A stretch of DNA of 22,088 nt from a virus, in the IMG/VR virus record IMGVR_UViG_3300048835_000451, positions 1 to 22,088 of that record; one strand, given 5' to 3'. Of the stretch, positions 8,091-22,088 are shown one piece after another (the first letter of the stretch is position 1; every line of letters begins with the position of its first letter). Both the position numbers and the translations under genes were made by a program. The notes beneath the pieces are model-generated. The model did not search any database. It had not been told where the DNA came from and saw only the letters and a program-made list of their open reading frames with translations.

Positions 8091-8314
8091 CGGGACACCT
8101 CCAGCGAAGCAAACGCGGCCTGTAGCGCCTCTATGACGGCTGCAATGGCATCCGGCCGCAGCGATACGCCTTTCGGTCCCGGCCGCAGCTCGCCGTCGCG
8201 GTCGAAGTACCAGACGCGGATGTCAACGTAGGTCGTGCCCTTGTACTCGGACGCTGTGACGCGCAGCACGTCGCGTCCGCGTGGCTGATCGAGGAAGACC
8301 GTCGGTTCAGACAT
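8087..8314 (-). CDS. PC4-like ssDNA-binding / transcriptional coactivator p15 domain protein
   Basis: The 75-residue protein has the compact PC4 domain pattern: DVLRVTASEYKGTTYVDIRV, WYFDRDGELRPGPKGVSL, then a C-terminal helix PDAIAAVIEALQAAF. In bacteria and phages this fold binds single-stranded DNA and can support replication, recombination or transcription. Here it sits between a winged-helix regulator and a Lar-like gene, so a role in element replication or expression is likely. Its ATG overlaps the preceding gene by 8 bases. The domain call is strong from the motif order; the role is inferred. Confidence 0.8.
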   Translation of the reverse strand: MSEPTVFLDQPRGRDVLRVTASEYKGTTYVDIRVWYFDRDGELRPGPKGVSLRPDAIAAVIEALQAAFASLEVSR

Positions 8315-8600: not shown

Positions 8601-8610
8601 GGTCGGCACC

Positions 8611-8847
8611 TCACAGCACCACGAAGCCGCCGTCATGCGGGTTCGATTCGGCTTCCCGATCGCGCGCCCACTGAAGGTCGGCTTCTTCCGAGACATAGCG
8701 CCGCCGGCCGACCTTGTACGTCCGCAGCCGGCCGGATGCGATTTCTTCGAAGGCGCGAGTGCGACCGACTCGGCGGCGAGCGCACCATTCCGGGATCGTG
8801 AACGACTTGGGGTTGACCGCGAGTGCGGTCGAGATGATTTCTGCCAC
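8611..8847 (-). CDS. AlpA/excisionase-like helix-turn-helix protein (78 aa)
   Basis: The protein starts with GTG at 8847, preceded by GGGAG at a 7-base spacing. It contains a MerR-like helix-turn-helix: KSFTIPEWCARRRVGRTRAF, EEIASGRLRTYKVGRRRYVS, then EEADLQWARDRE. This is the arrangement of AlpA and excisionase proteins, which activate integrase or bend DNA at att for excision. In PICIs the AlpA-type activator is the switch read by helper phage. It lies downstream of int and the 202-residue gene, transcribed in the same direction, at the head of the block of small regulatory and replication genes. AlpA versus pure excisionase cannot be separated by sequence alone. Confidence 0.72.
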   Translation of the reverse strand: MAEIISTALAVNPKSFTIPEWCARRRVGRTRAFEEIASGRLRTYKVGRRRYVSEEADLQWARDREAESNPHDGGFVVL

Positions 8848-8940
8848 GGATTGACTCCCGAGACTGACCCGCGTTCGGCGCGGTCCGCCTGCGTTTGTTC
8901 AACGCATTGCGGTCAGAATCGGCGAATCAATCGAGCCGGC

Positions 8941-9549
8941 CTATCTCTTTCGCCGAATTGCCCAAAAGCGCGAAAGTGACTGCTGGCCGGTCAGCTCGGA
9001 TTGCGTGTCGTCGATCATCTTCACGAGCCGCGTCGCTGTCGTCTTCTTCACGCTCCACTTGCCGGTACTCAGCACGGCGTCGAGAGCCGGACTCAGCCCG
9101 TTGTGATCGGCCGCGACCTTCCAGACTGCCTTCCAGAGTCGCGCGCCAAGTTGCCATTCCCGCTGCGCTTTGGCGGCCTTCTCCGGCGTATTCGTCGGCA
9201 GGTTCCGGCTGTAGAAGATCGCATCGAGCGATGTCGGTCCGCCGACCTTCCCCATCGACGTGAACAGCTCATTGAACGCGACCGCGAGCCACTCCGGCAG
9301 CGGCAGGTTTTCTTCAGCACACAGCTTGACGGCGTGGAGCAGCTCCATTGTGTCGCCAGCCTGGTAGCGCCTGCGCCGCGCCTCGACCTCCTGATGAACC
9401 GCGATCAGCGATCGCGTTCGGATGCTGTCGCCGTGCCCGAATCGGTGCCCGGTTCGGAACGCGTGCGCAGCCTTCGCCCATGCAGGATCGAGATTGCGTA
9501 GCCGCTTCTCGTCGTCGTTGTAGCTGCTCTCAGCGTGGAAGGGGTTCAT
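8941..9549 (-). CDS. Hypothetical protein following the integrase (202 aa)
   Basis: The ATG at 9549 overlaps the integrase stop (ATGA), so the two are probably translated together. The product (MNPFHAESSYNDDEKRLRNL and on) is soluble, charged and helical. One segment reads LPLPEWLAVAFNELFTSMGK and the C-terminus is basic (RFWAIRRKR). I do not recognise a family and see no catalytic motif. Position next to int suggests a part in mobility, stability or replication control, but this is only context. The frame is open upstream into the integrase; that extension is out-of-frame integrase sequence. Confidence 0.65.
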   Translation of the reverse strand: MNPFHAESSYNDDEKRLRNLDPAWAKAAHAFRTGHRFGHGDSIRTRSLIAVHQEVEARRRRYQAGDTMELLHAVKLCAEENLPLPEWLAVAFNELFTSMGKVGGPTSLDAIFYSRNLPTNTPEKAAKAQREWQLGARLWKAVWKVAADHNGLSPALDAVLSTGKWSVKKTTATRLVKMIDDTQSELTGQQSLSRFWAIRRKR

Positions 9550-10769
9550 GCAGCACCCCGCGTCATCTTGAGCACCTTCGCGGTCGGCTTGCCTTCGAGC
9601 CACTCGGCCCATTGCCGCATCATCGACGTGCGTCGCTCCAGATGGACCCCGCGCAGGTACGCGGCGTCGGTCAGGTTGTCCTTCGCGTGCGATAGCTGCG
9701 CCTTCACGATCTCGACCGGAAAGCCCATTTCTTCGAGCCCGGTAGCGACCGTGGCGCGCAGTCCGTGGCCGGTCAGTCGGCCCTTGTACCCCATCTTTTC
9801 GAGCGCCTGCAGGACGACGTTTTCGCTCGCCATCTGCCCCGGCCCGTTCGGCGACGCGAAGGCGAGCGTCTCGGTGTTGACCTCGCGCAGCTCGCGCAGC
9901 ATCGCCACGGCCTGCGGTGGCAGCGGAACGACGTGCGGCCTGCGTTTCTTCATCCGCTCGGCCGGCACCGTCCAAGTGCCCGCGTCAAGGTCGAACTCGT
10001 CCCAGGTCGCGCCGCGAACCTCGCCGGTACGGCTCGCCGTCCAGAGGATCATGCGGATGATCCCCTTCGTACTCGGGTGCCCCTGATAGCCGTCCAGACG
10101 CGTCAGGAAGGCTTGCAGGTCCGCCGGCTTGATGCTGGCGAAGTGCGTGCGCTCGGGAGCCTCGAATGCGCCGGACAGCTCGCGCACAGGGTTGTCGGTG
10201 CGCCGGCCGGTCTGCACCGCGAAGGCGAAGACCGCGCCAACGCGCTGGCGCACCCGGCGAAGCGTCTCCAGCTTGCCGGCGCGCTCCAGCGGATCGAGCA
10301 CCGCGACGACATCCTGCGCATTCAGCGCTCCGATCGGCCGCTTGCCGATCTTCGGGAAAACGTAGTCGCGCAGGCTCTGCCGATTCTGCTCGATATGGCC
10401 CTCGGTCCACTTCTTCTGCCGCTTGGTGATCCACTCGCCCGCGACCGTCTCGAAGGTTTGTGCGGCTGCATGTACCCGCTGCGCGACTTCCTCGCGCTTG
10501 TGCTGTACCGGGTCGATGCCTTGCCGGACCAGATCGCGCGCCGCCGCCGCCCGCTCGCGCGCCACCTTCAGGCCCACGTCGGGGTACTCGCCGAGCGCGA
10601 GCATCCGCTCCTTGCCGGCGAAGGTATAGCGCAGTCGCCAGAGCCGCGCGCCGGTTGTCTTGACGACAAGGATGAGTCCGCGCCCGTCGTTCAGCTTGTA
10701 ATCGGCGGGTTGAGGCTTCGCGCCTCGCAGCTTGGCGTCGGACAACGCCTCGATGATCTTCTTCGGCAC
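9546..10769 (-). CDS. int: P4-type tyrosine integrase of element A (DUF4102 N-terminus)
   Basis: I chose GTG at 10,769, giving 407 residues beginning MPKKIIEALSDAKL, because AGGGA lies 9 bases upstream and the start matches the family. A TTG at 10,787 is an alternative. Residues 1-95 form the arm-binding DUF4102 domain (YKLNDGRGLILVVKTTGARL), residues 105-195 the core-binding domain, and the C-terminal catalytic domain carries R247, H335-x-x-R338, H361 and Y371. All signature residues are present, so the enzyme should be active. It would integrate and excise element A at its att site. Repeats at 10,792-10,823 directly upstream are likely arm sites. It is divergent from the second integrase at 11,107. 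Confidence 0.93.
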   Translation of the reverse strand: MPKKIIEALSDAKLRGAKPQPADYKLNDGRGLILVVKTTGARLWRLRYTFAGKERMLALGEYPDVGLKVARERAAAARDLVRQGIDPVQHKREEVAQRVHAAAQTFETVAGEWITKRQKKWTEGHIEQNRQSLRDYVFPKIGKRPIGALNAQDVVAVLDPLERAGKLETLRRVRQRVGAVFAFAVQTGRRTDNPVRELSGAFEAPERTHFASIKPADLQAFLTRLDGYQGHPSTKGIIRMILWTASRTGEVRGATWDEFDLDAGTWTVPAERMKKRRPHVVPLPPQAVAMLRELREVNTETLAFASPNGPGQMASENVVLQALEKMGYKGRLTGHGLRATVATGLEEMGFPVEIVKAQLSHAKDNLTDAAYLRGVHLERRTSMMRQWAEWLEGKPTAKVLKMTRGAA

Positions 10770-10791
10770 GGTTCGATATCCCTGCAATCAG

Positions 10792-10823
10792 CGCCCGGAA
10801 TCGGTACCCGGAACCGTACCCGG
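10792..10823. repeat. Three (CG/TA)CCCGG repeats, candidate integrase arm sites
   Basis: CGCCCGG at 10,792, TACCCGG at 10,805 and TACCCGG at 10,817 start 13 and 12 bases apart, close to one helical turn. They lie immediately upstream of the element A integrase. The same heptamer in the opposite orientation (CCGGGCG) occurs four times beside tRNA-Pro at 21,876-21,938. Arm-type sites of tyrosine integrases usually look like this. Confidence 0.5.
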
Positions 10824-10836
10824 ATAATTCTCGACT

Positions 10837-10939
10837 GTCAACGGACGTGCGCGAACGTCGCCGAAAGACTGCGGTATTTTGATCCCTTGAGAATCAGTAG
10901 GTTATCGGGGTTTTCTGGTCGTCAGCGGACATTTACGAA
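10837..10939. repeat. Pair of spaced direct repeats between the integrases
   Basis: GTCAACGGAC-N5-CGAA at 10,837-10,855 and GTCAGCGGAC-N5-CGAA at 10,921-10,939 are separated by 84 bases start to start and share the same internal spacing. They may be recombinase or excisionase sites, or the two half-junctions left by adjacent integrations. The match is 13 of 14 fixed positions. Confidence 0.4.
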
Positions 10940-10958
10940 TGCTGACGAATTGCTGACT

Positions 10959-10983
10959 GGCGGAGGGAGGGTAATCCTCCGCC
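10959..10983. other. Hairpin in the inter-integrase region
   Basis: GGCGGAGG and CCTCCGCC form a perfect 8-base stem with a 9-base loop. No U-tract follows on either strand, so it is not a standard terminator. It may be a relic of a host terminator, or a protein-binding site. Confidence 0.4.
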
Positions 10984-11076
10984 ATGTTTCCGGCTGTCGC
11001 ATGACGCTGCCGAAACCCGCGTTTTCAGAGGGAAACGCATAAACAGGTAGACCCATGCCGTCGCCGCCTGTACCAT

Positions 11077-11095
11077 CCAATTACACACTAATTGG
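11077..11095. promoter_or_regulatory. AT-rich palindrome just upstream of integrase B, candidate operator
   Basis: CCAATTA-CACAC-TAATTGG is a perfect 7-base inverted repeat with a 5-base spacer, ending 11 bases before the ATG at 11,107. Its AT-richness stands out from the surrounding sequence. Overlap with the probable ribosome-binding region suggests an operator for int or an integrase/AlpA site. Confidence 0.5.
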
Positions 11096-11106
11096 TGGGT
11101 AACAGG

Positions 11107-12357
11107 ATGGGCACGAAAGGCAGACGTTTGGCGGAGGAACTCTCCGCCATCGAGGTCAAGCGGTTGAAAGCCCCCGGCCTGCACTTCGTGGGGCACGTCG
11201 TCGGCCTGGCGCTGCAGGTGACGCCGGCCGGCACCCGGTCGTGGATTCTGCGGTACTCGGCGGGCACCCGGCGCCGCGAGATGGGCCTGGGCAACTACCC
11301 GAGCGTGACGCTCGCCGATGCCTGCACGGCCGCGCGAAAGGCGCGCGAGCTGCTGCGCGAAGGGATCGACCCGATCGAGGATGCGCGGGCCAAGCGCAGT
11401 CAACTGGGCGCCGTCCTGTCCCTCTCGTTCGACCAGTGCGTCGAGAAGTACATCGCCGCGCACGAGGCCGGCTGGAAAAACGCGAAGCACGGCGCACAGT
11501 GGCGCTCGACGCTCGACACCTACGCATCGCCGCACTTCGGCAAGCTGCAGGTCCGCGACGTGACGACCGGGCACGTCATGGCCGCGCTCGATCCGATCTG
11601 GACGACCAAGACGGAGACCGCGACCCGCGTTCGCGGCAGGATCGAGTCGGTACTGGACTGGGCGAAGGTGCGCGGCTACCGCGACGGCGAGAACCCGGCG
11701 CGCTGGCGCGGGCACCTGGACAAGCTGCTGCCGAAACCCTCGAAGGTCGCGCAGACGGAACACCATGCGGCGCTCCCCTACCCCGAGCTTGGCGACTTCA
11801 TGGTGAAGCTGCGCGCCGCCGCCGGCATGGGCGCTCGGGCGCTCGAGTTCACGATCCTGACCGCTGCGCGCTCGGGCGAGGTCCGCGGTGCCACCTGGTC
11901 CGAGATTGACCTGGAGGCCGGCATCTGGACGGTTCCCGGCTCGCGCATGAAGGCGGGCAAGGAGCACAAGGTGCCGCTGTCGGATGCGGCGCTCGAGCTG
12001 CTCGCGTCGCTGCCGCGCACCGATGAGACGGACCTGATCTTCTTCGGCACGAGGAACCGGCCGCTGTCGGACATGAGCCTGACCGCCGTGCTTCGGCGCA
12101 TGGGCCTGGACGTGACGGCGCACGGCTTCCGATCGACGTTCCGGGACTGGGCTGCGGAGACGACCGCCTATCCGTCGGAGGTGGTCGAGATGGCGCTGGC
12201 GCACACGATCGCCAACAAGGTGGAAGCGGCCTACCGGCGCGGCGACCTGTTCGACAAGCGCCGCCGGCTCATGGCCGACTGGACGAAGTTCTGCGGCACG
12301 TCGTCGGCGAAGACCGGCGCAGTCGTGCCGATGCGAAAACGCAAGACCGCCGCGTGA
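11107..12357 (+). CDS. int: P4-type tyrosine integrase of element B (DUF4102 N-terminus)
   Basis: The 416-residue enzyme begins MGTKGRRLAEELSAIEVKRL. The ATG at 11,107 has GGTGGG 7 bases upstream; an upstream TTG at 11,092 lies inside the palindrome and is less likely. The N-terminal DUF4102 domain contains LALQVTPAGTRSWILRYSAG and LGNYPSVTLADA. The catalytic domain shows R255, H339-x-x-R342, H366 and Y376, all expected residues. It shares domain layout but limited sequence with the integrase at 9,546-10,769, so the two are not recent duplicates. It would integrate element B. As the first gene of the rightward element it marks the left end of element B. Confidence 0.94.
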   Translation: MGTKGRRLAEELSAIEVKRLKAPGLHFVGHVVGLALQVTPAGTRSWILRYSAGTRRREMGLGNYPSVTLADACTAARKARELLREGIDPIEDARAKRSQLGAVLSLSFDQCVEKYIAAHEAGWKNAKHGAQWRSTLDTYASPHFGKLQVRDVTTGHVMAALDPIWTTKTETATRVRGRIESVLDWAKVRGYRDGENPARWRGHLDKLLPKPSKVAQTEHHAALPYPELGDFMVKLRAAAGMGARALEFTILTAARSGEVRGATWSEIDLEAGIWTVPGSRMKAGKEHKVPLSDAALELLASLPRTDETDLIFFGTRNRPLSDMSLTAVLRRMGLDVTAHGFRSTFRDWAAETTAYPSEVVEMALAHTIANKVEAAYRRGDLFDKRRRLMADWTKFCGTSSAKTGAVVPMRKRKTAA

Positions 12358-12439
12358 CGGACTCACGCAAAGAGCGGGCCGACCAGTGCGCGAACACCGG
12401 CCGGCCCTGACCACAACCCGATCACTGGGAGATCGAATC

Positions 12440-13090
12440 ATGGCTACCGAAACTGTAACCGACCCGAGCGCGCTGCCGCTTGAGCACCACGAATACGACC
12501 ACGTCGAGCGCTTCGTCGGCACAAAGGAGCAGCTGCAGGCCGTCGGCATCGGCGTGGGCGTGGCGTTTCCGGGTGAACCCGGCGCGCAGCCGCGGCAGAT
12601 CACAGTGCGCGATCCCCGCGGATTCAAGGCGCAAATCGCGCGAGCCTACCCGTGGCAAGGCGCCGGCCGGTATCGCGTGAACATTCACTTTCCGCCGGCT
12701 GAGTGGGAAAGCAGGCGCGCGGAGCGCCAGGAGCGCAAGCGGCTCGAGAGATTGCGCGCGACCGCGCAGGAGGCCGGCATGACGGTGGAGCAATGGCTAC
12801 TGCGGGACGTGCCGGAATCGGCCGCGGCGTTCCGGGCCCAGAAGTGCGTCGTCGCTGAGTTCATCACCGCGCTGATCTGGGCACACGTTGACGGCCGCGA
12901 CGGATATTCGTTCGACGCGGCGGCGCGCGCTCAGTGCGAGGCGCTCACGGCGAACCTGGTGCGCCTGTTCGAGCATGGCGGCATCGTATTCGACAAGGCT
13001 GCGCATGAGCAGGCGATCGCCGAGAAGCTGGCCGCTGCTGGCATCGTGCGCCAGGCCCAGAGCCGGCCGACGCTGCGGGTCGTCAAGTGA
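12440..13090 (+). CDS. Hypothetical protein of element B (216 aa)
   Basis: The ATG at 12,440 has GGGAG 8 bases upstream. The product has an N-terminal part with strands (AVGIGVGVAFPGEPG), a middle of basic helix (WESRRAERQERKRLERLRAT), and a C-terminal helical part (AAFRAQKCVVAEFITALIWA and on) ending in a basic tail. I do not recognise it. Its stop overlaps the next start (TGATG), so both form one unit between int and alpA. A role in regulation or replication of the element is possible by position only. Confidence 0.65.
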   Translation: MATETVTDPSALPLEHHEYDHVERFVGTKEQLQAVGIGVGVAFPGEPGAQPRQITVRDPRGFKAQIARAYPWQGAGRYRVNIHFPPAEWESRRAERQERKRLERLRATAQEAGMTVEQWLLRDVPESAAAFRAQKCVVAEFITALIWAHVDGRDGYSFDAAARAQCEALTANLVRLFEHGGIVFDKAAHEQAIAEKLAAAGIVRQAQSRPTLRVVK

Positions 13091-13503
13091 TGAACTTCAA
13101 GCTGAGGCCCGACCCGGAGACGCGCTGGCGGTGGGCGATCACCGCATGGGCTGATGGCGACACGGCCGGCGTTCTGCGATTGCTGGCCGTCGATACCCCA
13201 ATTCCAGGGTTCGCGCGCGCCTGGCTGGCCGATGCAGTGCTCGGCAAGGTCAAGCGCAGGCGGGGACCGAAGAAGGCCAGGCCCGATCTGGCGCGAGCCG
13301 TCCGCGAGGTTGAAATACGGGCCAACTTCGACCTTGCGCTGGCTGCGGCACGCTACCTTGCGGCCGAAGATGCCGAGGCCGGGCGCGTCGGCGACACTCC
13401 GACGACTCGCGCGATTGCGTCCCTCGCTCGCAAGCACGGGCTGTCAGAGGACGCGGTATCGCGCATCGTGTTCCATCGCAAGGCGCGCAATTCCAGGAAA
13501 TAG
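13090..13503 (+). CDS. Hypothetical small protein with C-terminal HTH-like segment (137 aa)
   Basis: Starting at the ATG that overlaps the preceding stop, the product is MNFKLRPDPETRWRWAITAW and on. A basic stretch KVKRRRGPKKARPDLARAVR is followed by helices, and the C-terminus TTRAIASLARKHGLSEDAVS reads like a helix-turn-helix, ending in basic residues. A DNA-binding role is likely but the family is not recognised. A perfect hairpin follows directly after the stop codon. Confidence 0.6.
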   Translation: MNFKLRPDPETRWRWAITAWADGDTAGVLRLLAVDTPIPGFARAWLADAVLGKVKRRRGPKKARPDLARAVREVEIRANFDLALAAARYLAAEDAEAGRVGDTPTTRAIASLARKHGLSEDAVSRIVFHRKARNSRK

Positions 13504-13564
13504 CCGCCGTGACCGGCGGGCGCATGCTCGCCAATATCGCCTCGAATCGTCGCAACCCGCGACG
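13504..13564. promoter_or_regulatory. Two hairpins upstream of alpA
   Basis: CCGCCG-TGAC-CGGCGG at 13,504-13,519 and CGTCGC-AACCC-GCGACG at 13,548-13,564 are both perfect 6-base stems in the 81-base gap before alpA. Neither has a U-tract. They could control expression of the alpA-rep unit, as operator or attenuator, or be chance in GC-rich DNA. Confidence 0.35.
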
Positions 13565-13584
13565 TGTCGAACCGAGGCGCAGCA

Positions 13585-13785
13585 ATGAAGATCATCCGCG
13601 ATAAGCGCGTAGCCGAGAAGATCGGCGCGGCGTCGCGCGCAACCGTTTGGCGCAAGGCGAAGTCTGAGCCGGATTTTCCGAAGCCGGTCAAGGTCTCCGA
13701 GGGAATCTCCGGCTGGGTCGAGGCCGAGATCGATACATGGCTCGAGCGGCGGGTCGCCACGGCGCGTGGCAAGCGACCGGCGTAA
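13585..13785 (+). CDS. alpA: AlpA-family transcriptional activator
   Basis: The 66-residue protein has the AlpA pattern: MKIIRDKRVAEKIGAASRAT, VWRKAKSEPDFPKPVKVSEG, and GWVEAEIDTWLERRVA. The MerR-like helix-turn-helix binds operator or att-region DNA. In P4-type satellites and PICIs, AlpA activates int or the lytic genes and is the usual induction switch. The ATG at 13,585 has GAGG 7 bases upstream; a GTG 21 bases earlier in the frame lacks the family's start. The next gene begins directly after the TAA, so alpA and the RepA-like gene are one transcription unit. Confidence 0.85.
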   Translation: MKIIRDKRVAEKIGAASRATVWRKAKSEPDFPKPVKVSEGISGWVEAEIDTWLERRVATARGKRPA

Positions 13786-15132
13786 ATGCCCGACGCCACC
13801 GACGCTCAGGTGCGTCTGGCCGACGAGGCCGTGCGCGACGCCCTGCGGGCGATCGGCCCCGCGGATAGCGATGCCGCGTTCGCGGCACAGGTCGTCGACT
13901 ATGGGCTCGAGCGGTTCGAGGAGAACCCGAAGCTTGTATTCGAGCGCGGATTCCTCAAGGCCCTCGAAGTACTCGAGCGAACCGATCGAGCTACTTTCAC
14001 GGACCGTCTCTCGCGGTTTCCGTATCGTACCGCGCAAGAGTTGCGCGGCGAGGTGGCGCGGCTGCGTAAGCGGGCCCCTATCAATCCGGCGCCCGCGACC
14101 GACAGCCGTGACGAGCTCCGCGCGCTCGACGGCGATGCGTTCCTCCAGGCGTTCGAGCCGCCGGCGTTCGTGGTGCGACCGGTCATCGTGCGCGGGCAAG
14201 TCACGGCGATCACAGCCCACCCGAACGGCGGAAAGACGTCGATCAGCATTCAGTTCTCGCTGCTGGTAGCCGGGCTTGTCACTCTCACCGGCCTCGAGGC
14301 CGACCCGGGGCGCGTGCTGTACCTGGCGGGCGACTCGGACACGAACTTCGCGGTACAGCTCATCGGCGCTTGCGAGCAGCACGGGATCGACCCGGCGCGA
14401 CTGAATGACCGCCTGGTGGTCGTGCCGCAGCGGTTCCCGCTGGCCGGGCGAGTCGAGCAGATCCGCGAGCTCGCCCAAGAGCGAGGCGGCTTTGACCTGG
14501 TCGTGGTCGACACCCGCCCCGCATACAGCTCGGCGATCGAGGAGGACGACAACCTGCAGGCGCTCGCCGATGCGCTGTCGTTGCGCGAGCTGACCCGAAT
14601 CGAGGGCGGACCCGCCGCCTTGGTGTTGTGCCACCCGCCGAAGAATGCGGCCCGCGACCAGCTCTACCCGCGCGGCGGCTCCGCCTTCCTGGGTGAGATC
14701 GACAACAACCTCGTCCTGTGGAACGACGACGGCATCGTCGAGTTGGGCGCAAACAAGCGGCGGATGCCTGAGTTCGACGCGCTGCGCTGGCGCTTCGAGG
14801 CGGTCGATATCTCCCGGGCCGACTCGCGCGGCGAACCGGTGCGCAGCGTAGTTGCCCGGATGGTCACCGACGACCACGGCGACCAGCGCGCCAAGGTGCG
14901 CCGGGAGGATGAGAACCGCCTGCTGTTCACGATGCTGCGGCACCCGGACGAATCACTCGGCGCGTGGGCGCGGCTGTGTGGCTGGATGCTGCGGGACGGC
15001 GGCGGCGAGCCCCACAAGACGAAAGTCGACCGCACGCTCAAGCGCCTGGCGGCCGACCGACTGGTCGAGAAGTACCGCGGCAGATACCGCCTGACGAAGC
15101 TTGGGAAGCGGGAGGCCGAAGGTGTCGACTGA
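13786..15132 (+). CDS. RepA-like AAA ATPase / replicative helicase with C-terminal winged helix
   Basis: The 448-residue product has about 125 N-terminal residues of unknown type and then a RecA-like AAA_25 domain. Walker A is AHPNGGKTS at 144-152 and Walker B is FDLVVVDT with D242. LYLAGDSDTN lies between them, as in RSF1010 RepA-type hexameric helicases. The C-terminal 90 residues (DENRLLFTMLRHPDESLGAW, then a basic KVDRTLKRLAADRLVEKYRG) look like a winged helix that could bind origin DNA. It would melt and unwind the element B origin. The GTAC repeat array starts 17 bases after its stop. The ATG follows the alpA stop immediately. Confidence 0.85.
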   Translation: MPDATDAQVRLADEAVRDALRAIGPADSDAAFAAQVVDYGLERFEENPKLVFERGFLKALEVLERTDRATFTDRLSRFPYRTAQELRGEVARLRKRAPINPAPATDSRDELRALDGDAFLQAFEPPAFVVRPVIVRGQVTAITAHPNGGKTSISIQFSLLVAGLVTLTGLEADPGRVLYLAGDSDTNFAVQLIGACEQHGIDPARLNDRLVVVPQRFPLAGRVEQIRELAQERGGFDLVVVDTRPAYSSAIEEDDNLQALADALSLRELTRIEGGPAALVLCHPPKNAARDQLYPRGGSAFLGEIDNNLVLWNDDGIVELGANKRRMPEFDALRWRFEAVDISRADSRGEPVRSVVARMVTDDHGDQRAKVRREDENRLLFTMLRHPDESLGAWARLCGWMLRDGGGEPHKTKVDRTLKRLAADRLVEKYRGRYRLTKLGKREAEGVD

Positions 15133-15148
15133 CCCCAAGAACGGGGCG

Positions 15149-15324
15149 GTACGGGGGCGGTACGACGAAGGGCCGTACCGCGCGGTACGGATGCCGGTAC
15201 GAGCCGCCCCGAAACCCGCGCCAGTCAAGGCTTTCAGCCGTACCGGCGCGCCCGGTACGCACCGGTACGGGGCCCGTACCGTACCGGGCCCCCTCCCTAA
15301 GGGGCCGGTACGGCGGAACGGTAC
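15149..15324. repeat. Array of 12 GTAC-centred palindromic repeats, candidate origin of element B
   Basis: GTAC occurs at 15,149, 15,160, 15,175, 15,185, 15,197, 15,240, 15,255, 15,265, 15,276, 15,281, 15,308 and 15,321. Nearly all are in CGGTACGG or CCGTACCG contexts, so the unit is a GC-flanked palindrome. Most start-to-start distances are 10-15 bases, near one helical turn. Fewer than one GTAC would be expected by chance in 176 bases. Two CGGACCA heptamers 10 bases apart follow at 15,334 and 15,344. Position right behind the RepA-like gene suggests an iteron-type origin. The sites could also be operators or methylation targets. Confidence 0.7.
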
Positions 15325-15613
15325 GGCTCGATTCGGACCACTGCGGACCATCCGGCGAAAGACCGTTCTAGCCCAGTCGGCATGGCCGGAAGGTCGTCGC
15401 TTAACCCCCTTACAACCCCCTCGCAACCAGCGAGCGCCCGGGCTTCACATGGCCCGCCCCCGGGCCCCCTGTCCAGGACCCGGAGGGCGCCTCGAGGCAG
15501 CGGGTCTAGGTTCTTCCCCAGCGCCAGACAGAGCGGGTGCGATGAGGCCCGGGCGCGCCCTAGTGGCTGCCCCGCCAGTTAAATCAACTCTATGGCACTG
15601 ATAGGTATTGACT
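15325..15613. other. Non-coding gap upstream of terS, candidate packaging site
   Basis: About 290 bases hold no convincing gene. They include the CGGACCA pair at 15,334/15,344, C-rich runs (15,400-15,425), the GC-rich palindromic stretch around 15,435-15,485 and a short AT-richer patch at 15,579-15,613 directly before terS that may carry a promoter. In lambda-like phages cos lies just before a Nu1-type terS, so a cos-like site may be here; I cannot identify it by sequence. Confidence 0.35.
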
Positions 15614-16186
15614 ATGGAAAGAGTCACCAAGGCGGACATGGCCCGGCGCCTGAACGTCACCCCTAGCGCGATCAGCAAGGCTATCGCAGCCGGGCGGCTG
15701 ACGGCCGACGCCGACGGCCTGATCGACCCCGTCGCCGGCGAAGCGCAGTGGGCGGCGAACCGGCGACGCCAGCGTCGTCGACATCGCGACGCGCCCCAGG
15801 GTGAGGGCGCGGCCGCGTCCCCCGCTGTGGCCGGCGCCGAGGGGTCCGACTACTGGTCGCACAAGACCCGGCGCGAGAAGGCCGAGGCGCAACTCGCCGA
15901 GCTCCGGCTCGCTGAGCAGGCCGGCACGCTGGTGCTGCGCGAAGCGGTCAACCGCACGCTCTTCACGGCCGCGCGCGTGATGCGCGACCAGATGCTGGCG
16001 ATCGCGCCGCGACTGGGTGCGTCGCTCGGCCCGGTGACCGATCCGAAGCTGATCGAGCTGCGGATCGCCGACGAGGTGCGCGTCGCGCTGCGCGCCTTCG
16101 CGCAGCAGCTGCGCGCCGGTGGCCTGCCCGATCCGTTTCCCGCGCCCCCCGACCCCTGTACCGAAGGAGACTCGCATGATTGCTGA
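15614..16186 (+). CDS. terS: Terminase small subunit, Nu1-like (DNA packaging)
   Basis: The 190-residue protein begins with a helix-turn-helix (TKADMARRLNVTPSAISKAI, AAGRLTAD) like lambda Nu1 and related TerS proteins, which bind the cos region. After a basic, low-complexity linker the segment SDYWSHKTRREKAEAQLAEL continues into helices with LVLREAVNRTLFTAARVMRD and TDPKLIELRIADEVRVALRA, the usual Nu1-type oligomerisation and TerL-contact region. The ATG at 15,614 is preferred over the TTG two codons earlier. No terL follows, which is unexpected: in phages the large subunit is next. In PICIs a solitary TerS redirects helper packaging, which is the likely function. Confidence 0.8.
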   Translation: MERVTKADMARRLNVTPSAISKAIAAGRLTADADGLIDPVAGEAQWAANRRRQRRRHRDAPQGEGAAASPAVAGAEGSDYWSHKTRREKAEAQLAELRLAEQAGTLVLREAVNRTLFTAARVMRDQMLAIAPRLGASLGPVTDPKLIELRIADEVRVALRAFAQQLRAGGLPDPFPAPPDPCTEGDSHDC

Positions 16187-16493
16187 CCCCGTCGCCACCG
16201 TGCACGCGCTGGCGGTCGACGCAGAGCTGGCGCTGCTCGCCAGCAAGTTCGACGAGTTCGCGCCGCGCTTGCGCCAGGCGCTCGCCGCTTGCCCGCCCGA
16301 CCGCCGCCCGGACGTCGTGTTGTCGCTCCCGCTTGTGGAGGCCCTCGCGCTTCCCGCCCTCGAGCGGATGCCGCTCGAGGAGTTCTACGCGCATCGCGAC
16401 ACATTCCTCGCGGCGGCCGGTGGCGACATGGCCCGCGCCTGGGCCGAGTTCGTCTTCGCCTGCGCCGCCGGCGAGGTCGGCTTCAATGGCTGA
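16176..16493 (+). CDS. Small hypothetical protein after terS (105 aa)
   Basis: A strong GGAGA lies 5 bases before the ATG at 16,176, and the gene overlaps the terS end by 11 bases. The product MIADPVATVHALAVDAELAL and on is acidic, helical and Ala-rich, with no cysteine-rich or catalytic motif apart from two isolated cysteines. I do not recognise it. It sits where terL would normally be, so it may be a packaging adaptor or hijacking factor, but this is context only. Confidence 0.6.
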   Translation: MIADPVATVHALAVDAELALLASKFDEFAPRLRQALAACPPDRRPDVVLSLPLVEALALPALERMPLEEFYAHRDTFLAAAGGDMARAWAEFVFACAAGEVGFNG

Positions 16494-16929
16494 GCGCCGG
16501 CGCGCACAGTGGTTCGATCCGATCGCGCCGGCCGCGCGCCCGGCCGAGCCGGACCCTTGCGCACGTGCCGAGCTCGTCCTGCAGGCGATCGAACTGCTGC
16601 GCCACTACGAACGGCCCGGCGCGCGCCTGGTCGCCGACGGTCTCGCACGCTGGCTCTCGGAGGGCGGCGACCTGGCGCGACTGCTCGGCCTGCGCGTGCG
16701 TCGCGGACGTCGCGCGCCGATGACCACCTTGCGCCTGCGCACTCGCAACGAGCTGCTGCGCGAGGTCGCGGCCACGAGCGGCGCCTCGCCCGCGGCACTC
16801 GCCGACGTGATCGCGACCGGCGAGACCGAAGCGGCCCGACGCCTTCGCGAGCTCGGTGCGCCGGGCTCCCCGCGCCAGGTGGCACGAATCCTCTCCGGCC
16901 GTGCGCGGCGCGGTGACACGAGTTCATGA
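16486..16929 (+). CDS. Small basic hypothetical protein (147 aa)
   Basis: The ATG at 16,486 overlaps the preceding gene by 8 bases. The protein is Arg- and Ala-rich: MAERRRAQWFDPIAPAARPA, a helical middle (CARAELVLQAIELLRHYERP) and a basic C-terminal half with LARLLGLRVRRGRRAPM and SPRQVARILSGRARRG. It could bind nucleic acid. No family is recognised. Overlap with its neighbours and correct codon use support it as a real gene. Confidence 0.55.
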   Translation: MAERRRAQWFDPIAPAARPAEPDPCARAELVLQAIELLRHYERPGARLVADGLARWLSEGGDLARLLGLRVRRGRRAPMTTLRLRTRNELLREVAATSGASPAALADVIATGETEAARRLRELGAPGSPRQVARILSGRARRGDTSS

Positions 16930-16981
16930 ACTGGTGTCATCGAGCGGCCGCGGTCGATCATCCACCCTCATGGAGACCTCC

Positions 16982-17194
16982 ATGCCCAACGAGCGCGACA
17001 TCGACTACCGCCTGCTGCTGAAACCGACCGGCGGCCTCTGGTTGCTGCTCCCCGACCGGACCCTGATCGACATCGACCTGTCGCCCGCGGACCTGCGCTC
17101 GCTGGCGAGCGACTTGCTCGAGCTCGCCGACCGCGTCGACGCGATGCCGCGCGGCTTGCCACATCCGAGCGCGAAGGCTCATTCGAAATGCTGA
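16982..17194 (+). CDS. Small hypothetical protein upstream of capsid fusion (70 aa)
   Basis: GGAG lies 6 bases before the ATG at 16,982, which is why I prefer it to the ATG at 16,970. The product (MPNERDIDYRLLLKPTGGLW and on) has strands LWLLLPDRTLIDIDL followed by helix PADLRSLASDLLELADRVDA. The size and place, just before the capsid gene, recall small head-assembly proteins such as gpW-like joiners, but I see no firm signature. Its stop overlaps the next start by 7 bases. Confidence 0.55.
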   Translation: MPNERDIDYRLLLKPTGGLWLLLPDRTLIDIDLSPADLRSLASDLLELADRVDAMPRGLPHPSAKAHSKC

Positions 17195-19131
17195 CGCCCT
17201 GGTATTCGATCCGCGCGCGCGCTCCGCGTGCGGCTGAGGTGTTCATCTACGGCGACATCGGCGAGAGCTGGTCCGAGGAGAGCGTGACCGCCGCCGCGTT
17301 CGTGCGCGAGGTCTCCGCCCTGGACGTCGACGCCCTGACGGTGCGCCTGAACAGCTACGGCGGATCGGTCACCGACGGCCTGGCCATGTTCAACGTCCTC
17401 AAGCGCCACAAGGCCAGCGTCACGGTCGCGATCGACGGCATCGCTGCGTCGATCGCGTCACTCGTCGCGATGGCCGGCGACACCGTCGAGATGGCCGAGA
17501 ACGCCCTGCTGATGATCCATGCGCCCTGGGGCGCGGCCGTTGGCAACGCCGCGGCCATGCGCGAGTTCGCCGACACCCTGGACACCTGGGCGCAGGCGAT
17601 GGCCACCAGCTACGCCGCGAAGACCGGGCGCCCGCTCGAGGAAATGCTCGCGCTGCTCACCGACGGCGCCGATCACTGGCTCGACGCCGAGCAGGCGCGC
17701 GCCGAGGGCTTCGCCGATAGCGTCGTCGCCGCGGTTCCGCTGGCGGCGTCGTTCGACCTTTCGCGTTTCAAGCTGCCGGCCGCGATGGCCGCTCACTTTC
17801 AAGGAGAGAAGATGGACACTGCCGAGATCGAGGCGCGCGGCCGCGAGGCCGAGGCCCGGCGCCGCAAGGAAATCGCCGAGGCGTTCGGACGGTTTGCGAA
17901 GCGCGAAGGCGTCGCTGCGCTACTGGCGAGCTGCCAGGACGACATGACTTGCACGCCGCAGGCCGCGCGCGAGAAGCTGCTCGCGCACCTGGCCGCCGGC
18001 GCCGAGCCGCTCGGCGGCCACTACGTCGCGAGGCCTGCCAGCATGGAGCACGAGAGCCCGGAAGGGCATCGCGCGCTGATGGCAGAGGCGCTCGCCTATC
18101 GGATGGGCGGGCCCGCGCCGCGCGACGGCAACCCGTACCGGCATGCGACCTTCGCCGACGCCGCGGCCGAAGTGCTCGCGCATCGTGGCGTTTCCACGCG
18201 CGACCTGTCGCGTTCGCAGATCGTGCGCGCGGCGCTCACGCACACGACGAGCGACTTCGCCATCCTGCTGCAGGACACGACGAACCGGACGCTGCGCCAG
18301 GCGTACGGCGCCGCGCCCAGCGGCATCATGCGCATCGCCCGCAAGGCGACCGCGCCGGACTTCCGCGCGAAGTACCGCGTGCAGCTGGGCGAGTGGCCCG
18401 AGCTGCTCGAGGTGCCCGAGGGCGCCGAGTTCAAGGCCGGCTCGATCGCGTCGAGTCAGGAGACGTACCGTCTGCGCACCTACGGCCGCACGTTCGGCAT
18501 CACGCGCCAGGCGCTGGTGAACGACGACCTGGGCGCGTTCGCCGACATGGTCCGGGCCTTCGGTCGCTCGGCCGCCGAGCTGCAGGCGAAGGTGCTCGCG
18601 GACCTGCTCACGACCGCGACCGGTGTCGGGCCGACGATGAGCGACACCAAGGCGCTGTTCCACGCTGACCACGGCAACCTGGCCGGCTCGGGCGCCGCGC
18701 TCGACGTGACGAGCCTTGGCGCCGCGCGTGCGGCGATGCGGCTGCAGAAGGGTCAGGACGGCGTGACGCCGATCAACGCCGAGCCGAGGTTCATCCTGGT
18801 GCCGGCCGCTCTCGAGACGAAGGCCGAGCAAGTGGTCGCGTCGATCGCGGCCGCCACCGCCGCCGACGTGAACCCGTTCTCTGGCCGGCTCGAGGTGGTA
18901 GTCGACCCGCGGCTCGACGGCGCCTACACGAACAGCGCGAAGGCCTGGTACGTGTTCGCCGACCCGGCGGCACTCGACACGATCGAGTACGCCTATCTCG
19001 ACGGCGACGAAGGCCCGGTGGTCGAGACCGAGCCGGGCTTCCGGATCGACGGCGTCGAGATCAAGTGTCGCCTGGACTTCGGCGCAGGCGTGCTCGACTG
19101 GCGCGGCGCCTACCGCAATCCGGGCGCCTGA
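17188..19131 (+). CDS. ClpP-like prohead protease / major capsid protein fusion
   Basis: The 647-residue protein joins two head proteins. Residues 15-190 are a ClpP-type serine protease: VRLNSYGGSVTDGLAMFNVL, S88 in GIAASIAS, H111 in LMIHAPWG and D162 in GADHWLDAEQARAEGF form the expected triad. Residues from about 209 begin with a charged scaffold-like helix (MDTAEIEARGREAEARRRKE). A Mu gpT-like major capsid domain follows, with FAILLQDTTNRTLRQAYG, the TYGRTFGITRQALVNDDLGA motif, KALFHADHGNLA, ARAAMRLQKGQDG and a C-terminal DYRGAYRNPGA-like end. Such fusions are known in prophages. Release of the shell by self-cleavage or internal initiation is likely. No portal gene precedes it. Confidence 0.88.
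   Translation: MLTPWYSIRARAPRAAEVFIYGDIGESWSEESVTAAAFVREVSALDVDALTVRLNSYGGSVTDGLAMFNVLKRHKASVTVAIDGIAASIASLVAMAGDTVEMAENALLMIHAPWGAAVGNAAAMREFADTLDTWAQAMATSYAAKTGRPLEEMLALLTDGADHWLDAEQARAEGFADSVVAAVPLAASFDLSRFKLPAAMAAHFQGEKMDTAEIEARGREAEARRRKEIAEAFGRFAKREGVAALLASCQDDMTCTPQAAREKLLAHLAAGAEPLGGHYVARPASMEHESPEGHRALMAEALAYRMGGPAPRDGNPYRHATFADAAAEVLAHRGVSTRDLSRSQIVRAALTHTTSDFAILLQDTTNRTLRQAYGAAPSGIMRIARKATAPDFRAKYRVQLGEWPELLEVPEGAEFKAGSIASSQETYRLRTYGRTFGITRQALVNDDLGAFADMVRAFGRSAAELQAKVLADLLTTATGVGPTMSDTKALFHADHGNLAGSGAALDVTSLGAARAAMRLQKGQDGVTPINAEPRFILVPAALETKAEQVVASIAAATAADVNPFSGRLEVVVDPRLDGAYTNSAKAWYVFADPAALDTIEYAYLDGDEGPVVETEPGFRIDGVEIKCRLDFGAGVLDWRGAYRNPGA
17801..17814 (+). promoter_or_regulatory. 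Internal ribosome-binding site and in-frame start inside the capsid fusion
   Basis: AAGGAGAG at 17,801-17,808 lies directly before an in-frame ATG at 17,812, at an ideal spacing. It is exactly at the boundary between the protease and capsid parts. Translation from here would give a free 439-residue capsid protein alongside the 647-residue fusion, comparable in principle to lambda's nested scaffold gene. Confidence 0.6.
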
Positions 19132-19230
19132 TCGACTGCGAGCGGCTGGCGAGAGTGCTGCCCATAGCCGGCCGCCGCGCGCGCCCTTCCGCCAAGGGTG
19201 CGCTTTTCATCGACCCATGGGCGGCACCCA

Positions 19231-19252
19231 GCCGGGCCCCTCCGGGCCCGGC
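19231..19252. other. Strong GC hairpin after the capsid gene
   Basis: GCCGGGCCC-CTCC-GGGCCCGGC is a perfect 9-base stem with a 4-base loop in the 198-base gap between the capsid fusion and the tail-Z-like gene. No U-tract follows, so it may slow transcription, protect the capsid mRNA 3' end, or mark a scar. Nothing else is recognisable in the gap. Confidence 0.5.
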
Positions 19253-19329
19253 ATGCGCCTCTGGGACGCCTGCTCCCCCTTCTTCGCAGGCAGCGCCGGC
19301 GCACCTTCTCACCGCAACGGGAGTCCGCC

Positions 19330-19920
19330 TTGATTCGCATGTCCATAAGCTCCGATCTGTCCGCCGTTCACAACGAGCTGCGGCGCATGGAAAAGGGTCT
19401 GCGCGAACGCGCGATCGCATTCGCACTGAATCGCACCGCCGAGCAGGCAAAGACGGCGGCCACGCGTGACATCGCATCAACGTACAACCTTCAGGCCGGT
19501 TACATCCGTGATCGCATCAAGATCCGCCGGGCGAAGGCGCGCGCGCAGTTGTTAGAGGTCGCGCTCGAGACGCCGGGCAAGCGTTCAGGGAATCTGATCC
19601 AATTCGCAGAGCGCAAGGTCACGATGGCACAGGCGCGGAAACGCACGAAGTCAGGCACGCACGGCGTGTATGTCAAGGTGCGGCGCAACGGCAGATACGT
19701 GCTGATCCCGGGAGCGTTCATCGCCAACGACGGGCGCACGGTGTTTCGCAGGATCGGCAAGGCACGGTTACCGATCGAGGCGTTGGCGGCCATCGACGTG
19801 CCGCAAGCGGTGTTCTCCAGTATTGGCGTGAGGAAGCTGCGGAAGGAAATCGAGTTGCGCTTCCCGAAGCGCATGGCGCACGAGCTCGAGCGGCTCATCA
19901 GGGGGTACGGGCCAACATGA
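19330..19920 (+). CDS. Minor tail protein Z-like (GPZ) protein
   Basis: I start at TTG 19,330 because GGGAG lies 6 bases upstream; the ATG at 19,339 has no well-placed site. The 196-residue product has MSISSDLSAVHNELRRMEKG, then RAIAFALNRTAEQAKTAATR and YNLQAGYIRDRIKIRRAKAR, typical of lambda gpZ-like proteins that join tail or neck to the head. The C-terminal half contains VYVKVRRNGRYVLIPGAFIA and PIEALAAIDVPQAVFS. In phages gpZ belongs to head-tail joining. As the only tail-related gene here it may connect the element B capsid to helper tails, or be a leftover of a lost phage. It is coupled by ATGA to the next gene. Confidence 0.7.
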   Translation: MIRMSISSDLSAVHNELRRMEKGLRERAIAFALNRTAEQAKTAATRDIASTYNLQAGYIRDRIKIRRAKARAQLLEVALETPGKRSGNLIQFAERKVTMAQARKRTKSGTHGVYVKVRRNGRYVLIPGAFIANDGRTVFRRIGKARLPIEALAAIDVPQAVFSSIGVRKLRKEIELRFPKRMAHELERLIRGYGPT

Positions 19921-20180
19921 CGCCGCGGCTACAGCGCTGGCTTCATGAAGCCGTCGAGATCGAGGCCGAGCTGCTGCAGGCGCCGCCGCTCGAGCTATCC
20001 GCGATCGACGCGGCCTGCGCAGCGCTCAATGCCGGCGGGCACCTCCGCCTGGTTGTCGACCTTCATCCGCCGCCCGGTGAACCGCGGCTGCGCGTCCGCG
20101 TGATCGAGCGCGGCTGTGCCTGGTGGCTGGCCGACACGGCGGGTCGCGTGGCCCCTGCGCCGACGCTCATGGGCGCCTGA
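19917..20180 (+). CDS. Hypothetical protein downstream of gpZ-like gene (87 aa)
   Basis: The start ATG overlaps the gpZ-like stop. The product (MTPRLQRWLHEAVEIEAELL and on) has a helical N-terminal half and strands in the second half (HLRLVVDLHPPPGEPRLRVR, GCAWWLADTAGRVAP). I do not recognise the family. The tight coupling suggests that it works with the gpZ-like protein, perhaps at the head-tail interface. Confidence 0.55.
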   Translation: MTPRLQRWLHEAVEIEAELLQAPPLELSAIDAACAALNAGGHLRLVVDLHPPPGEPRLRVRVIERGCAWWLADTAGRVAPAPTLMGA

Positions 20181-20201
20181 CCATCGCGCGCGGAGAAGCG
20201 G

Positions 20202-21185
20202 ATGGCCGCTGTAGAAGGGTGGTCGGAGATCTCACCCCCGAACCGAGCTGGGGTCGAATGGTTTTCCCGACTCCTCAGCGCGATCCGCCATATCGAAGGG
20301 GTCCCTATTCTGTTGAGGAAGGGCGACATAGACGCCGCACGGCGCGTGGTGGTGCCGTACCTGGCCCGGCACGGCCGCCAACACGCCCTGGTGCGGACAG
20401 ATCTGTCCAACGAGGAGCGCGAGGTTCCCCTCTGGACGGGTCAGCCGGTTCGCCGCCTTACCGCAATCATGATGGAAGGCGACGGCGACGCCCTGCATTA
20501 CGCGCGCTTCCTGACGGCGGCCCGCAAGCGCTGCTCGCACTTGGTGTGCGTCACCGTCGATCGGCTGGTCAGGACCTTCCGCCGCTGCGCGCCGGCTGAC
20601 GAAGTCGTTCCATTCTCCAGACTCGACCACGCACTGCGCGAGGCAGACGCCTTTGTCTCGATTGGCCTGGATCTCATGCTTGTTGCCTCAGATGGGCGCG
20701 AGGGGCCGTTTCGCGTCGACGCACCGGCAGATGGCACTCCGACCATCGACCGCTCGAGGATCAACGTGGGCCTTTGCTGGGCCCAAGGTCACCCGGGGCC
20801 TGACCGCTCAATTCGATTCGAGCTGCTGCGCCCGCTGTTGGACATGGGCGGCATCACGTTTCACTCACTCCAGGTGGGAAGGGCCGCCAACGACCACGGC
20901 GGCGAGTTGCGCTCCCACGCGATAGCCGACTATGACGACACCGCTGCGTTGATCGCCGCGCTGGACGCGATCGTAACCGTCGATACGAGTGTCGCTCATC
21001 TCGCGGCAACGATGGGCGCTCCGACTCACCTCTTGCTTCCAGAGGGCCCTTGTCAGCGCGCCGATGCGCGATGGGGGGACGGCGATCGGCGTACGCGGCT
21101 CTATTCAAGCGCGAGGCTGTATCGAGGCGCCCCCTCGGCGATCGTCGCCGACGTCTGCCTTGCGATCCGCGGACATGGTCGTTGA
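20202..21185 (+). CDS. GT9-like (ADP-heptose-type/TPR-associated) glycosyltransferase homologue
   Basis: GGAGAAG lies 6 bases before the ATG at 20,202. The 327-residue protein resembles the catalytic part of TPR-linked GT9-type glycosyltransferases. EGDGDALHYARFLTAA matches the loop of the first Rossmann half. RINVGLCWAQGHPGPDRSIR, ITFHSLQVG, and DDTAALIAALDAIVTVDTSV followed by AHLAATMGAPTHLLLP match the second half. The usual TPR repeats are absent and the normally conserved DWRW-like ending is altered to DARWGDGDRR. It has no role in head building. It could modify surface glycans (phage exclusion), glycosylate a virion part, or be inactive. It follows gpZ and may be cargo. Confidence 0.65.
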   Translation: MAAVEGWSEISPPNRAGVEWFSRLLSAIRHIEGVPILLRKGDIDAARRVVVPYLARHGRQHALVRTDLSNEEREVPLWTGQPVRRLTAIMMEGDGDALHYARFLTAARKRCSHLVCVTVDRLVRTFRRCAPADEVVPFSRLDHALREADAFVSIGLDLMLVASDGREGPFRVDAPADGTPTIDRSRINVGLCWAQGHPGPDRSIRFELLRPLLDMGGITFHSLQVGRAANDHGGELRSHAIADYDDTAALIAALDAIVTVDTSVAHLAATMGAPTHLLLPEGPCQRADARWGDGDRRTRLYSSARLYRGAPSAIVADVCLAIRGHGR

Positions 21186-21277
21186 CAGTTGACCCGCGCA
21201 CGCATGGAGCGGATGGATGAGTAATAGCCGATGATTCATCGGGTATTACAGTTGACCCGCGCACGCGTGGAGCGGAT
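21185..21277. repeat. Direct repeats flanking a near-perfect palindrome
   Basis: Two 30-base copies at 21,185-21,214 and 21,248-21,277 (63 bases apart) differ at one base. Between them, 21,222-21,248 is an inverted repeat with 13-base arms (TAATAGCCGATGA / TCATCGGGTATTA), one mismatch and a 1-base centre. The first copy begins at the glycosyltransferase stop codon. The structure could be an operator region, a regulatory RNA hairpin or a recombination site. Confidence 0.75.
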
Positions 21278-21335
21278 ACTCGACGCGCGCCGAGGTTTCG
21301 GCGCCCGGGCTTGGCGGCCTGGTCTGAAGGCGGGC

Positions 21336-21358
21336 AACCGCCGCAAAGGCGGTTTTTT
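21336..21358 (+). terminator. Rho-independent terminator after the glycosyltransferase region
   Basis: AACCGCC-GCAAA-GGCGGTT with a run of six T is a classic intrinsic terminator on the plus strand. It separates the upstream element B genes from the small gene at 21,478. Confidence 0.85.
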
Positions 21359-21477
21359 CATGCCCGCTCGCTGTGCTCCGCTATGGGCGGGCCGGCGGGA
21401 GGCTCGCGAGAGCCTGCCAGTCCTTCAGCTGGTCCGCCAACCCGTCGGTTCCGCTCACCCAACGAAGGAGCATCATC

Positions 21478-21831
21478 ATGGCGAAGAAAAAAACCGCGGC
21501 AATACCCGCGCCTGAGGGCACGCAGGCGCATGGCGTCGCCGAGCGCGATCTGCGCAACAAGATCGAATGGATCGATGCGCAGGTCCGGGGCGCGACAGAC
21601 TCCATCCGGGCGCTTGCTGCGGGCGCCGAAGCAGTCCTCTCAAGCGGCGGAAATGCATTGACGATCTACCATATGCTCATCGACATCATGTACTGGGCCG
21701 ATACCCTGGCGAACAACGTCGCCTACGAGGCCGAGGAGGTCGGCGCGAATCATCGCTCGAACAACGCGGCAGCAGAGGCCAGGATCATTCGAGGCTGGCG
21801 GTATAACGCTGAAAGCGTTGAGGCGGCCTGA
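21478..21831 (+). CDS. Terminator-bounded small hypothetical protein (117 aa)
   Basis: GGAG lies 7 bases before the ATG. The product starts MAKKKTAAIPAPEGTQAHGV and is then largely helical: ERDLRNKIEWIDAQVRGATD, ALTIYHMLIDIMYWADTLAN, NVAYEAEEVGANHRSNNAAA. No transmembrane segment or catalytic motif is clear and no family is recognised. It is isolated from its neighbours by terminators at 21,336-21,358 and 21,853-21,873, so it has its own promoter. An independently expressed gene at the end of a satellite is often a moron or defence/hijack gene; here that is inference only. Confidence 0.6.
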   Translation: MAKKKTAAIPAPEGTQAHGVAERDLRNKIEWIDAQVRGATDSIRALAAGAEAVLSSGGNALTIYHMLIDIMYWADTLANNVAYEAEEVGANHRSNNAAAEARIIRGWRYNAESVEAA

Positions 21832-21852
21832 TCGCCGCCACGACCGCGCTAC

Positions 21853-21873
21853 GCCGCCTTCGGGCGGCTTTTT
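21853..21873 (+). terminator. Rho-independent terminator with UUCG loop
   Basis: GCCGCC-TTCG-GGCGGC followed by TTTTT lies 21 bases after the stop of the 117-residue gene. Stem, stable tetraloop and T-tract are all present. It closes the last gene of element B. Confidence 0.9.
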
Positions 21874-21875
21874 CA

Positions 21876-21938
21876 TTTCCGGGCGCGGTTTCCGGGCGCC
21901 GCGGTACCGGCTGAATTTTCCGGGCGTATTTCCGGGCG
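21876..21938. repeat. Four TTTCCGGGCG decamers, candidate arm sites near tRNA-Pro
   Basis: Identical decamers start at 21,876, 21,889, 21,917 and 21,929, with spacings of 13, 28 and 12 bases. They lie between the last element B gene and tRNA-Pro. Multiple short direct repeats beside a tRNA att site are the usual form of integrase arm sites. The core CCGGGCG is the reverse complement of the first repeat next to integrase A. Confidence 0.6.
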
Positions 21939-21955
21939 TGCCGGCCCATAAAGGC

Positions 21956-21990
21956 CAACGGGCTAGCCCCTTGTGAGAGCTAACCCGTTG
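21956..21990 (-). terminator. Hairpin downstream of tRNA-Pro, probable terminator
   Basis: A 12-base stem with one wobble pair (GGGTTAGC / GCTAGCCC core) and an 11-base loop lies just past the tRNA 3' end. On the minus strand it is followed by GGCCTTTAT, a weak U-tract. It probably ends the tRNA transcript. It could also be part of the attachment region. Confidence 0.5.
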
Positions 21991-21997
21991 ATTTCGT

Positions 21998-22075
<78 letters not shown>

Positions 22076-22088
22076 GGCCGCGAATTAT

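Follow-up and report, generated by a model that had tools for sequence, protein, structure and literature searches.

The window analyzed here, 22088 bp in length, is one whole linear IMG/VR record (IMGVR_UViG_3300048835_000451), which comes without a host genome. From about 10.8 to 22.0 kb it is occupied by an element of about 11 kb, here called element B, that carries an integrase, AlpA, a replication protein with an iteron origin, a TerS with a cos-like site, a fusion of a ClpP protease to a major capsid protein (ClpP-MCP) and gpZ, without TerL or portal. Its features are listed below by window coordinates and strand.

10788–11091, no strand: junction between element A (left) and element B (right), whose integrase genes diverge here; presumed to be the left end of B; no convincing direct repeat shared with the right end
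11092–12357, forward: tyrosine integrase (PF22022, PF13356, PF00589 [1e-16]; phrog_1)
12386–13090, forward: orf234, an ORF with no convincing family match
13087–13503, forward: orf138, possible HTH regulator (sub-threshold HTH matches only)
13564–13785, forward: AlpA-type excisionase/activator (PF05930, 1.8e-10)
13786–15132, forward: RepA-like AAA_25 ATPase, replication (PF13481, 1e-15; phrog_906)
15133–15400, no strand: candidate replication origin with nine GGTACGG/CCGTACC-type iterons (repeat listing and shuffle test)
15500–15572, forward: cos-like site, GCGGGTCT...(59)...TAGTGGCTGCCC, first box degenerate (two-part motif search)
15608–16186, forward: TerS, Nu1 type (phrog_57, 4e-28)
16176–16493, forward: s105, all-helical in a weak model (no family; AF2 pLDDT 60)
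16486–16929, forward: s147, helical, conserved between terS and the capsid gene (AF2 pLDDT 76; no PDB fold match)
16982–17194, forward: s70, with a positional counterpart in L083 (25%)
17188–19131, forward: ClpP protease/major capsid protein fusion (PF00574 and PF25209; phrog_133, 2e-179)
19339–19920, forward: gpZ/tail-completion (Neck1) protein (PF06763, 2e-15; phrog_27, 1e-24)
19917–20180, forward: s87; L083 and L166 each have a homologue behind their capsid gene
20202–21185, forward: glycosyltransferase-9-like (GT9-like) protein, accessory (PF01075, at cut-off)
21379–21462, forward: C4 antisense RNA (RF01695, 46.5 bits; gathering 45)
21479–21831, forward: small ORF behind the C4 RNA (ORF within 21373–21831)
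21998–22074, reverse: tRNA-Pro(GGG) at the right end of B, presumed integration target by analogy (ARAGORN)

Gene Content of Element B

All of the genes that the initial annotation had assigned to B (integrase, AlpA, a RepA-like protein, TerS, ClpP-MCP and one gpZ) were found by family matches, and the origin by its iteron count: the interval 15133–15400 holds nine GGTACGG-type repeats against 0.9 expected, with a maximum of five in 300 shuffles. A pattern search with RepA patterns found no relative of B's replication protein. The annotation was likewise correct in placing three small genes between terS and the ClpP-MCP gene (16176–16493, 16486–16929 and 16982–17194) and in its claim that B is without TerL and portal, neither of which turned up when 10788–22088 was searched with a panel made up of 95 TerL and 112 portal sequences. 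Indeed, there is no room for either gene between terS and the capsid gene, as the gap measures 1.0 kb. Family searches of the window recognized no lysis or tail genes in B other than gpZ, and the order terS-terL-W-portal-capsid-tail of lambda-type prophages, which prophage relatives such as L086 retain, is absent from B.

Several hallmarks of Gram-negative PICIs are present: an AlpA/MerR regulator behind int (PF05930, 13564–13785), a replication protein followed by an ori (the AAA_25 protein and the nine iterons) and a small size (~11 kb) with an incomplete set of head genes. As in cf-PICIs, B has its own major capsid protein and protease, in the form of ClpP-MCP; the TerL and portal that cf-PICIs also have are absent from B by the panel search.

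The catalytic triad of the ClpP part, S88-H111-D162, is present in the alignment columns. In phages, a ClpP-protease/MCP fusion makes the whole shell. Of the genes downstream, gpZ has a homologue in L164, and the s87 homologues in L083 and L166 gave E values of 9e-4 and 2e-5, respectively, in a small comparison. A tree of MCP sequences grouped B with L083 (support 97–99); the placement of L166 and L164 in this clade is tentative because of their long branches.

Among the small genes, s147 scores 46% to its homologue in L083, with weaker matches in L164 and L166; no relatives were found in viral contigs by pattern search or in plasmids by tblastn. Weak matches in four genomes (G013, G017, G061 and G157) were dismissed, as they have stops inside and E values near 5e-4. 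It had been suggested that structure prediction might reveal a cryptic portal here, an expectation that failed: s147 was predicted to be helical (pLDDT 76), with no fold match in the PDB. Together with the size of the genes, this model rules out a cryptic portal, the model of s105 being too weak to use.

TerS and the cos-Like Site

The TerS of B scores 59% to that of phage L097. By thirds, the two proteins are 71% identical at the C-terminus and 41% identical at the N-terminus. Nu1 of lambda contacts DNA through its N-terminal domain and TerL through its C-terminal part; the pattern of identity thus suggests that B has a motor in common with the phage and a changed DNA site.

A two-part motif (GGGTCC, 52–53 nt, TAGTGGCTGC) adjoins B-type TerS in phages L003 and L097 and in the satellite L166. 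In the version in B the first box is changed and the spacing is 59 nt. Both parts together were found, in 2.29 Mb, only in B, L166, L003 and L097, each time upstream of a B-type terS. Some lambda-type prophages have the motif GCGGGTCCT[CT]CC upstream of terS, and it occupies the corresponding position in L083, L166, L164 and the E. coli elements described below. Two of the latter (L149 and L098) have the cos-like motif twice, before the capsid gene and before terS, and EcCICFT073 likewise has two cosN copies (PMC6092414). A PWM scan of B for the cosN core yielded background scores only and no match. We infer a cos role for the motif, and the degenerate core of B may not work.

L003 and L097, with a B-type TerS and the same cos-like site, are candidates for the helper. 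Among viral contigs, L003 also has the phage capsid protein closest to that of B (48%).

The Ends of B and the Neighboring Element

Of the integrase and att repeat expected of a PICI, B has the integrase; its att repeat was not found, and its relative L164 has a perfect one of 58 bp. Direct repeats of at least 12 nt with at most two mismatches between 10.7–11.1 kb and the right end, and att candidates of 9–12 nt between the left, middle and right ends of B, gave chance-like matches only, and conserved ends are not supported for the B copy itself. By analogy, tRNA-Pro(GGG) is presumed to be the integration target; a second copy of its 3' half was not found within the window. Since the att sites were not found and the cosN core is degenerate, this copy of B may be damaged or the contig rearranged. 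The words CCCGGAA and TTCCGGGCG recur near both presumed ends (10791–10830 and 21876–21936) and are possibly integrase arm sites.

The C4 antisense RNA is common to B, L083 and L166, and L083 has a similar arrangement of C4 RNA and then a small ORF. Ahead of the C4 RNA of B stands a 30-bp direct repeat (97%) with a start-to-start spacing of 63 nt (window 21185–21277).

Element A (window 558–10787, reverse strand) encodes TerL, TerS (phrog_83), an HNH-like ORF (recognized by eye), a portal, an S78 protease, an HK97 MCP and an integrase; tail genes were not recognized in it. Lying directly beside B, it looks from its gene content like a cf-PICI.

Relatives of B and a Prophage Control

The closest capsid relative of B among 84,980 species genomes (54%) belongs to L083, which contains int, a small AlpA-like protein (no Pfam match), a primase, two TerS, s147 (46%), an s70-like gene, ClpP-MCP, an s87-like gene, the C4 RNA and a tRNA-Leu. 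Sampling of genomes from the family and class of L083 yielded L166 and L164. L166 contains int, a primase, TerS, the C4 RNA, a distant relative of s147, an MCP that lacks the ClpP domain, and s87, and an 18-bp tRNA repeat at its ends gives it a length near 14.0 kb. L164 contains int, a 78-aa MerR-type HTH protein (by eye), a primase, an HTH protein resembling TerS (an uncertain assignment, made from the HTH only), a relative of s147, ClpP-MCP and gpZ, and a perfect 58-bp repeat of the 3' half of tRNA-Leu marks both of its ends exactly, for a length of 9706 bp. TerL and portal are absent from all three.

Two side observations concern L083. Within this single satellite two Nu1-type TerS genes stand in tandem (L083:4347–5325); the second matches Phage_Nu1 and shares 53% identity with the TerS of a Cupriavidus prophage. 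The integrase of L083 is 83% identical to that of L166 (G271), both elements being at tRNA-Leu(taa), and their capsid modules are only distantly related.

Four elements from separate records (B, L083, L166 and L164) share this capsid module, with neither TerL nor portal, on three different integrase/replication backbones: the integrases and replication proteins of B, L083/L166 and L164 are strongly divergent, while the capsid module is homologous. The module of this lineage, of which few members are known, thus moves as a unit.

As a control we used 102 capsid-relative loci whose capsid gene is preceded by 4.5 kb or more of sequence. Outside the satellites nearly all of them are prophages; most had both TerL and portal and a few had one of the two; neither was present only in the satellites, in L017 and in L095, a remote ClpP match. 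Although it is without TerL and portal, L017 was not counted as a satellite, since its gene order differs and its contig is short. That TerL and portal are both missing almost only in satellites among these 102 loci disfavors the view that B is a decayed prophage. The recurrence proposed beforehand as a test, namely the same module elsewhere with defined ends and never with terL, was found in L083, L166, L164 and the E. coli elements. Meanwhile, the only loci in which terL and portal still separate terS from the capsid gene, the arrangement that was to be taken as the mark of a degraded prophage, were prophages that do not belong to the satellite group.

A Parallel Lineage in E. coli

NZ_CP148328.1 (L098) is a 10,790-bp circle with int, an alpA-type HTH protein, a primase, ClpP-MCP, a tail fragment and a DUF1441 TerS. 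Closely related chromosomal copies sit between cspD and clpS, and a place covering at least 80% of NZ_CP148328.1 was found in 52 of 5,426 complete genomes, a count that reflects sampling. The record was deposited as an E. coli plasmid and looks like the circular form of the chromosomal satellite at cspD-clpS. The MCP gene of these elements has a dN/dS of 0.015–0.09, indicative of strong purifying selection, and resembles the primase and integrase genes in this.

Like B, the cspD-clpS elements (L149, L150 and NZ_CP148328.1) have int, ClpP-MCP, TerS and a cos-like motif before terS, without TerL or portal, and an alpA-type HTH, a primase and ori-like repeats follow the plan of B. Unlike B, they have the capsid gene before terS, a TerS of the DUF1441 type and no gpZ, and in the MCP tree they group with lambdoid phages, not with B. 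Since their MCP groups apart, the possession of a capsid gene without TerL and portal evidently arose at least twice.

Comparison with Known Satellites

A satellite with a shell gene and TerS that lacks TerL and portal is thus real and recurrent, with relatives of the same composition in several bacterial lineages, E. coli among them, as the initial annotation had held for the type itself; its further claim that this is an undescribed intermediate class did not stand, in view of precedents among PICIs and in SaPIbov5 (PMC10111431, PMC6092414, PMC8569155). According to PMC10111431, 21 of the 29 reference Gram-negative PICIs carry a major capsid gene, and transfer does not depend on it; PMC6092414 describes PICIs that have terS as well as PICIs that have a capsid gene, such as EcCICFT073 and PmCI172. 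PmCI172 has a capsid homologue and small heads (PMC6092414), and the capsid gene of EcCICFT073, c1499, is dispensable (PMC6092414, PMC10111431). In SaPIbov5, a homologue of the capsid protein, Ccm, is made and the helper's portal is used (PMC8569155); Ccm joins helper heads (PMC8569155, PMC5052747).

The capsid-bearing Gram-negative PICIs (EcCICFT073, PmCI172 and 11capE; PMC10111431, PMC6092414) resemble B in having int, AlpA (or MerR), a replication protein with a downstream ori and a capsid gene. They measure about 10–20 kb, sometimes have terS and use the motor and tail of a helper, as B presumably does. B differs from them in its ClpP-MCP fusion together with a Nu1-type TerS and gpZ, in its C4 RNA and in an MCP lineage apart from the E. 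coli group. With SaPIbov5 and other cos SaPIs that have Ccm (PMC8569155, PMC5052747), B has in common a satellite capsid homologue and, presumably, cos packaging and the use of the helper's portal, TerL and tail; these SaPIs differ in that their Ccm is without a protease and forms no heads alone, only the 3' end of terS is kept, and they are Gram-positive with unrelated genes. As summarized in PMC10690885, cf-PICIs have their own head protein and TerS and a borrowed tail, as B probably does, and, unlike B, also encode TerL, portal and connectors. The kind is therefore already known; within the searchable literature, the B lineage and its TerS-s147-MCP module look new.

A Model for Packaging, and Its Alternatives

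We read element B as a PICI-type phage satellite, and we assign a probability of about 0.6 to the full scheme in which its TerS recruits a helper's TerL and its own capsid protein is used on the helper's portal. The helper, the packaging and the composition of the head are inferred from sequence. A lambda-type helper phage would derepress AlpA and so induce B, which would excise and then replicate from its iteron origin. The N-terminal domain of TerS would bind B's own site and mark B DNA, and the conserved C-terminal part would recruit the helper's gpA-type TerL, which would package the DNA through the helper's portal. The capsid protein, after cleavage by the ClpP domain that it carries, would build or co-build on the helper's portal ring a head of ~11 kb capacity made wholly or partly of ClpP-MCP, and gpZ would help to join the helper's tail. 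We further propose, tentatively and as a possibility rather than a probability, that B forms with its relatives a satellite lineage of its own, with a whole self-processing shell and its own DNA recognizer, assembled on the portal and motor of a helper. This would be a stable intermediate between TerS-redirecting PICIs and cf-PICIs that selection has maintained and that arose on at least two occasions.

What the capsid protein does is the main point on which the alternatives turn. Strong purifying selection in E. coli, and the unrelated integrase and replication backbones elsewhere, argue that a satellite capsid gene does something; the dispensability of the EcCICFT073 gene (PMC6092414, PMC10111431) argues that it need not build the shell. 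It is conceivable, if rather unlikely, that the B protein is an interference or size-redirecting factor and not the main shell, mixing into or blocking helper heads so that the DNA travels in heads of mostly helper protein, as with SaPIbov5 Ccm, which occupies pentamers only and cannot make heads alone (PMC8569155). Purifying selection fits this equally well. B, however, encodes a complete fusion of ClpP protease and MCP whose triad is intact, whereas no protease was identified for SaPIbov5 (PMC8569155).

It is quite improbable that B is a lambda-like prophage in decay, stripped of TerL, portal and tails by deletions. Its TerS and MCP do derive from lambda-type phages, and the missing att repeat and degenerate cosN core would fit decay, but the same gene set recurs on unrelated int/rep backbones, among them an element with perfect ends (L164), and a parallel lineage is under purifying selection in many E. 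coli genomes; moreover, the AlpA and rep-ori plan is PICI-like, and the panel search found no recognizable fragments of TerL or portal in B. We consider it scarcely credible that B uses the TerL and portal of element A in place of those of a phage. A encodes TerL, portal, protease and MCP only 300 bp from B, but its parts are of HK97 type (TerS phrog_83, portal PF04860, MCP PF05065) and those of B of lambda type (phrog_57, phrog_133), and the complete L164 stands alone, without an A element.

The habit of Gram-negative satellites of keeping a capsid gene without a portal or motor is unexplained, and the elements described here turn it into a testable question. If a satellite shell does assemble on a foreign portal, this would show how loose the coupling between shell and portal is, and it may mark an evolutionary route to cf-PICIs.
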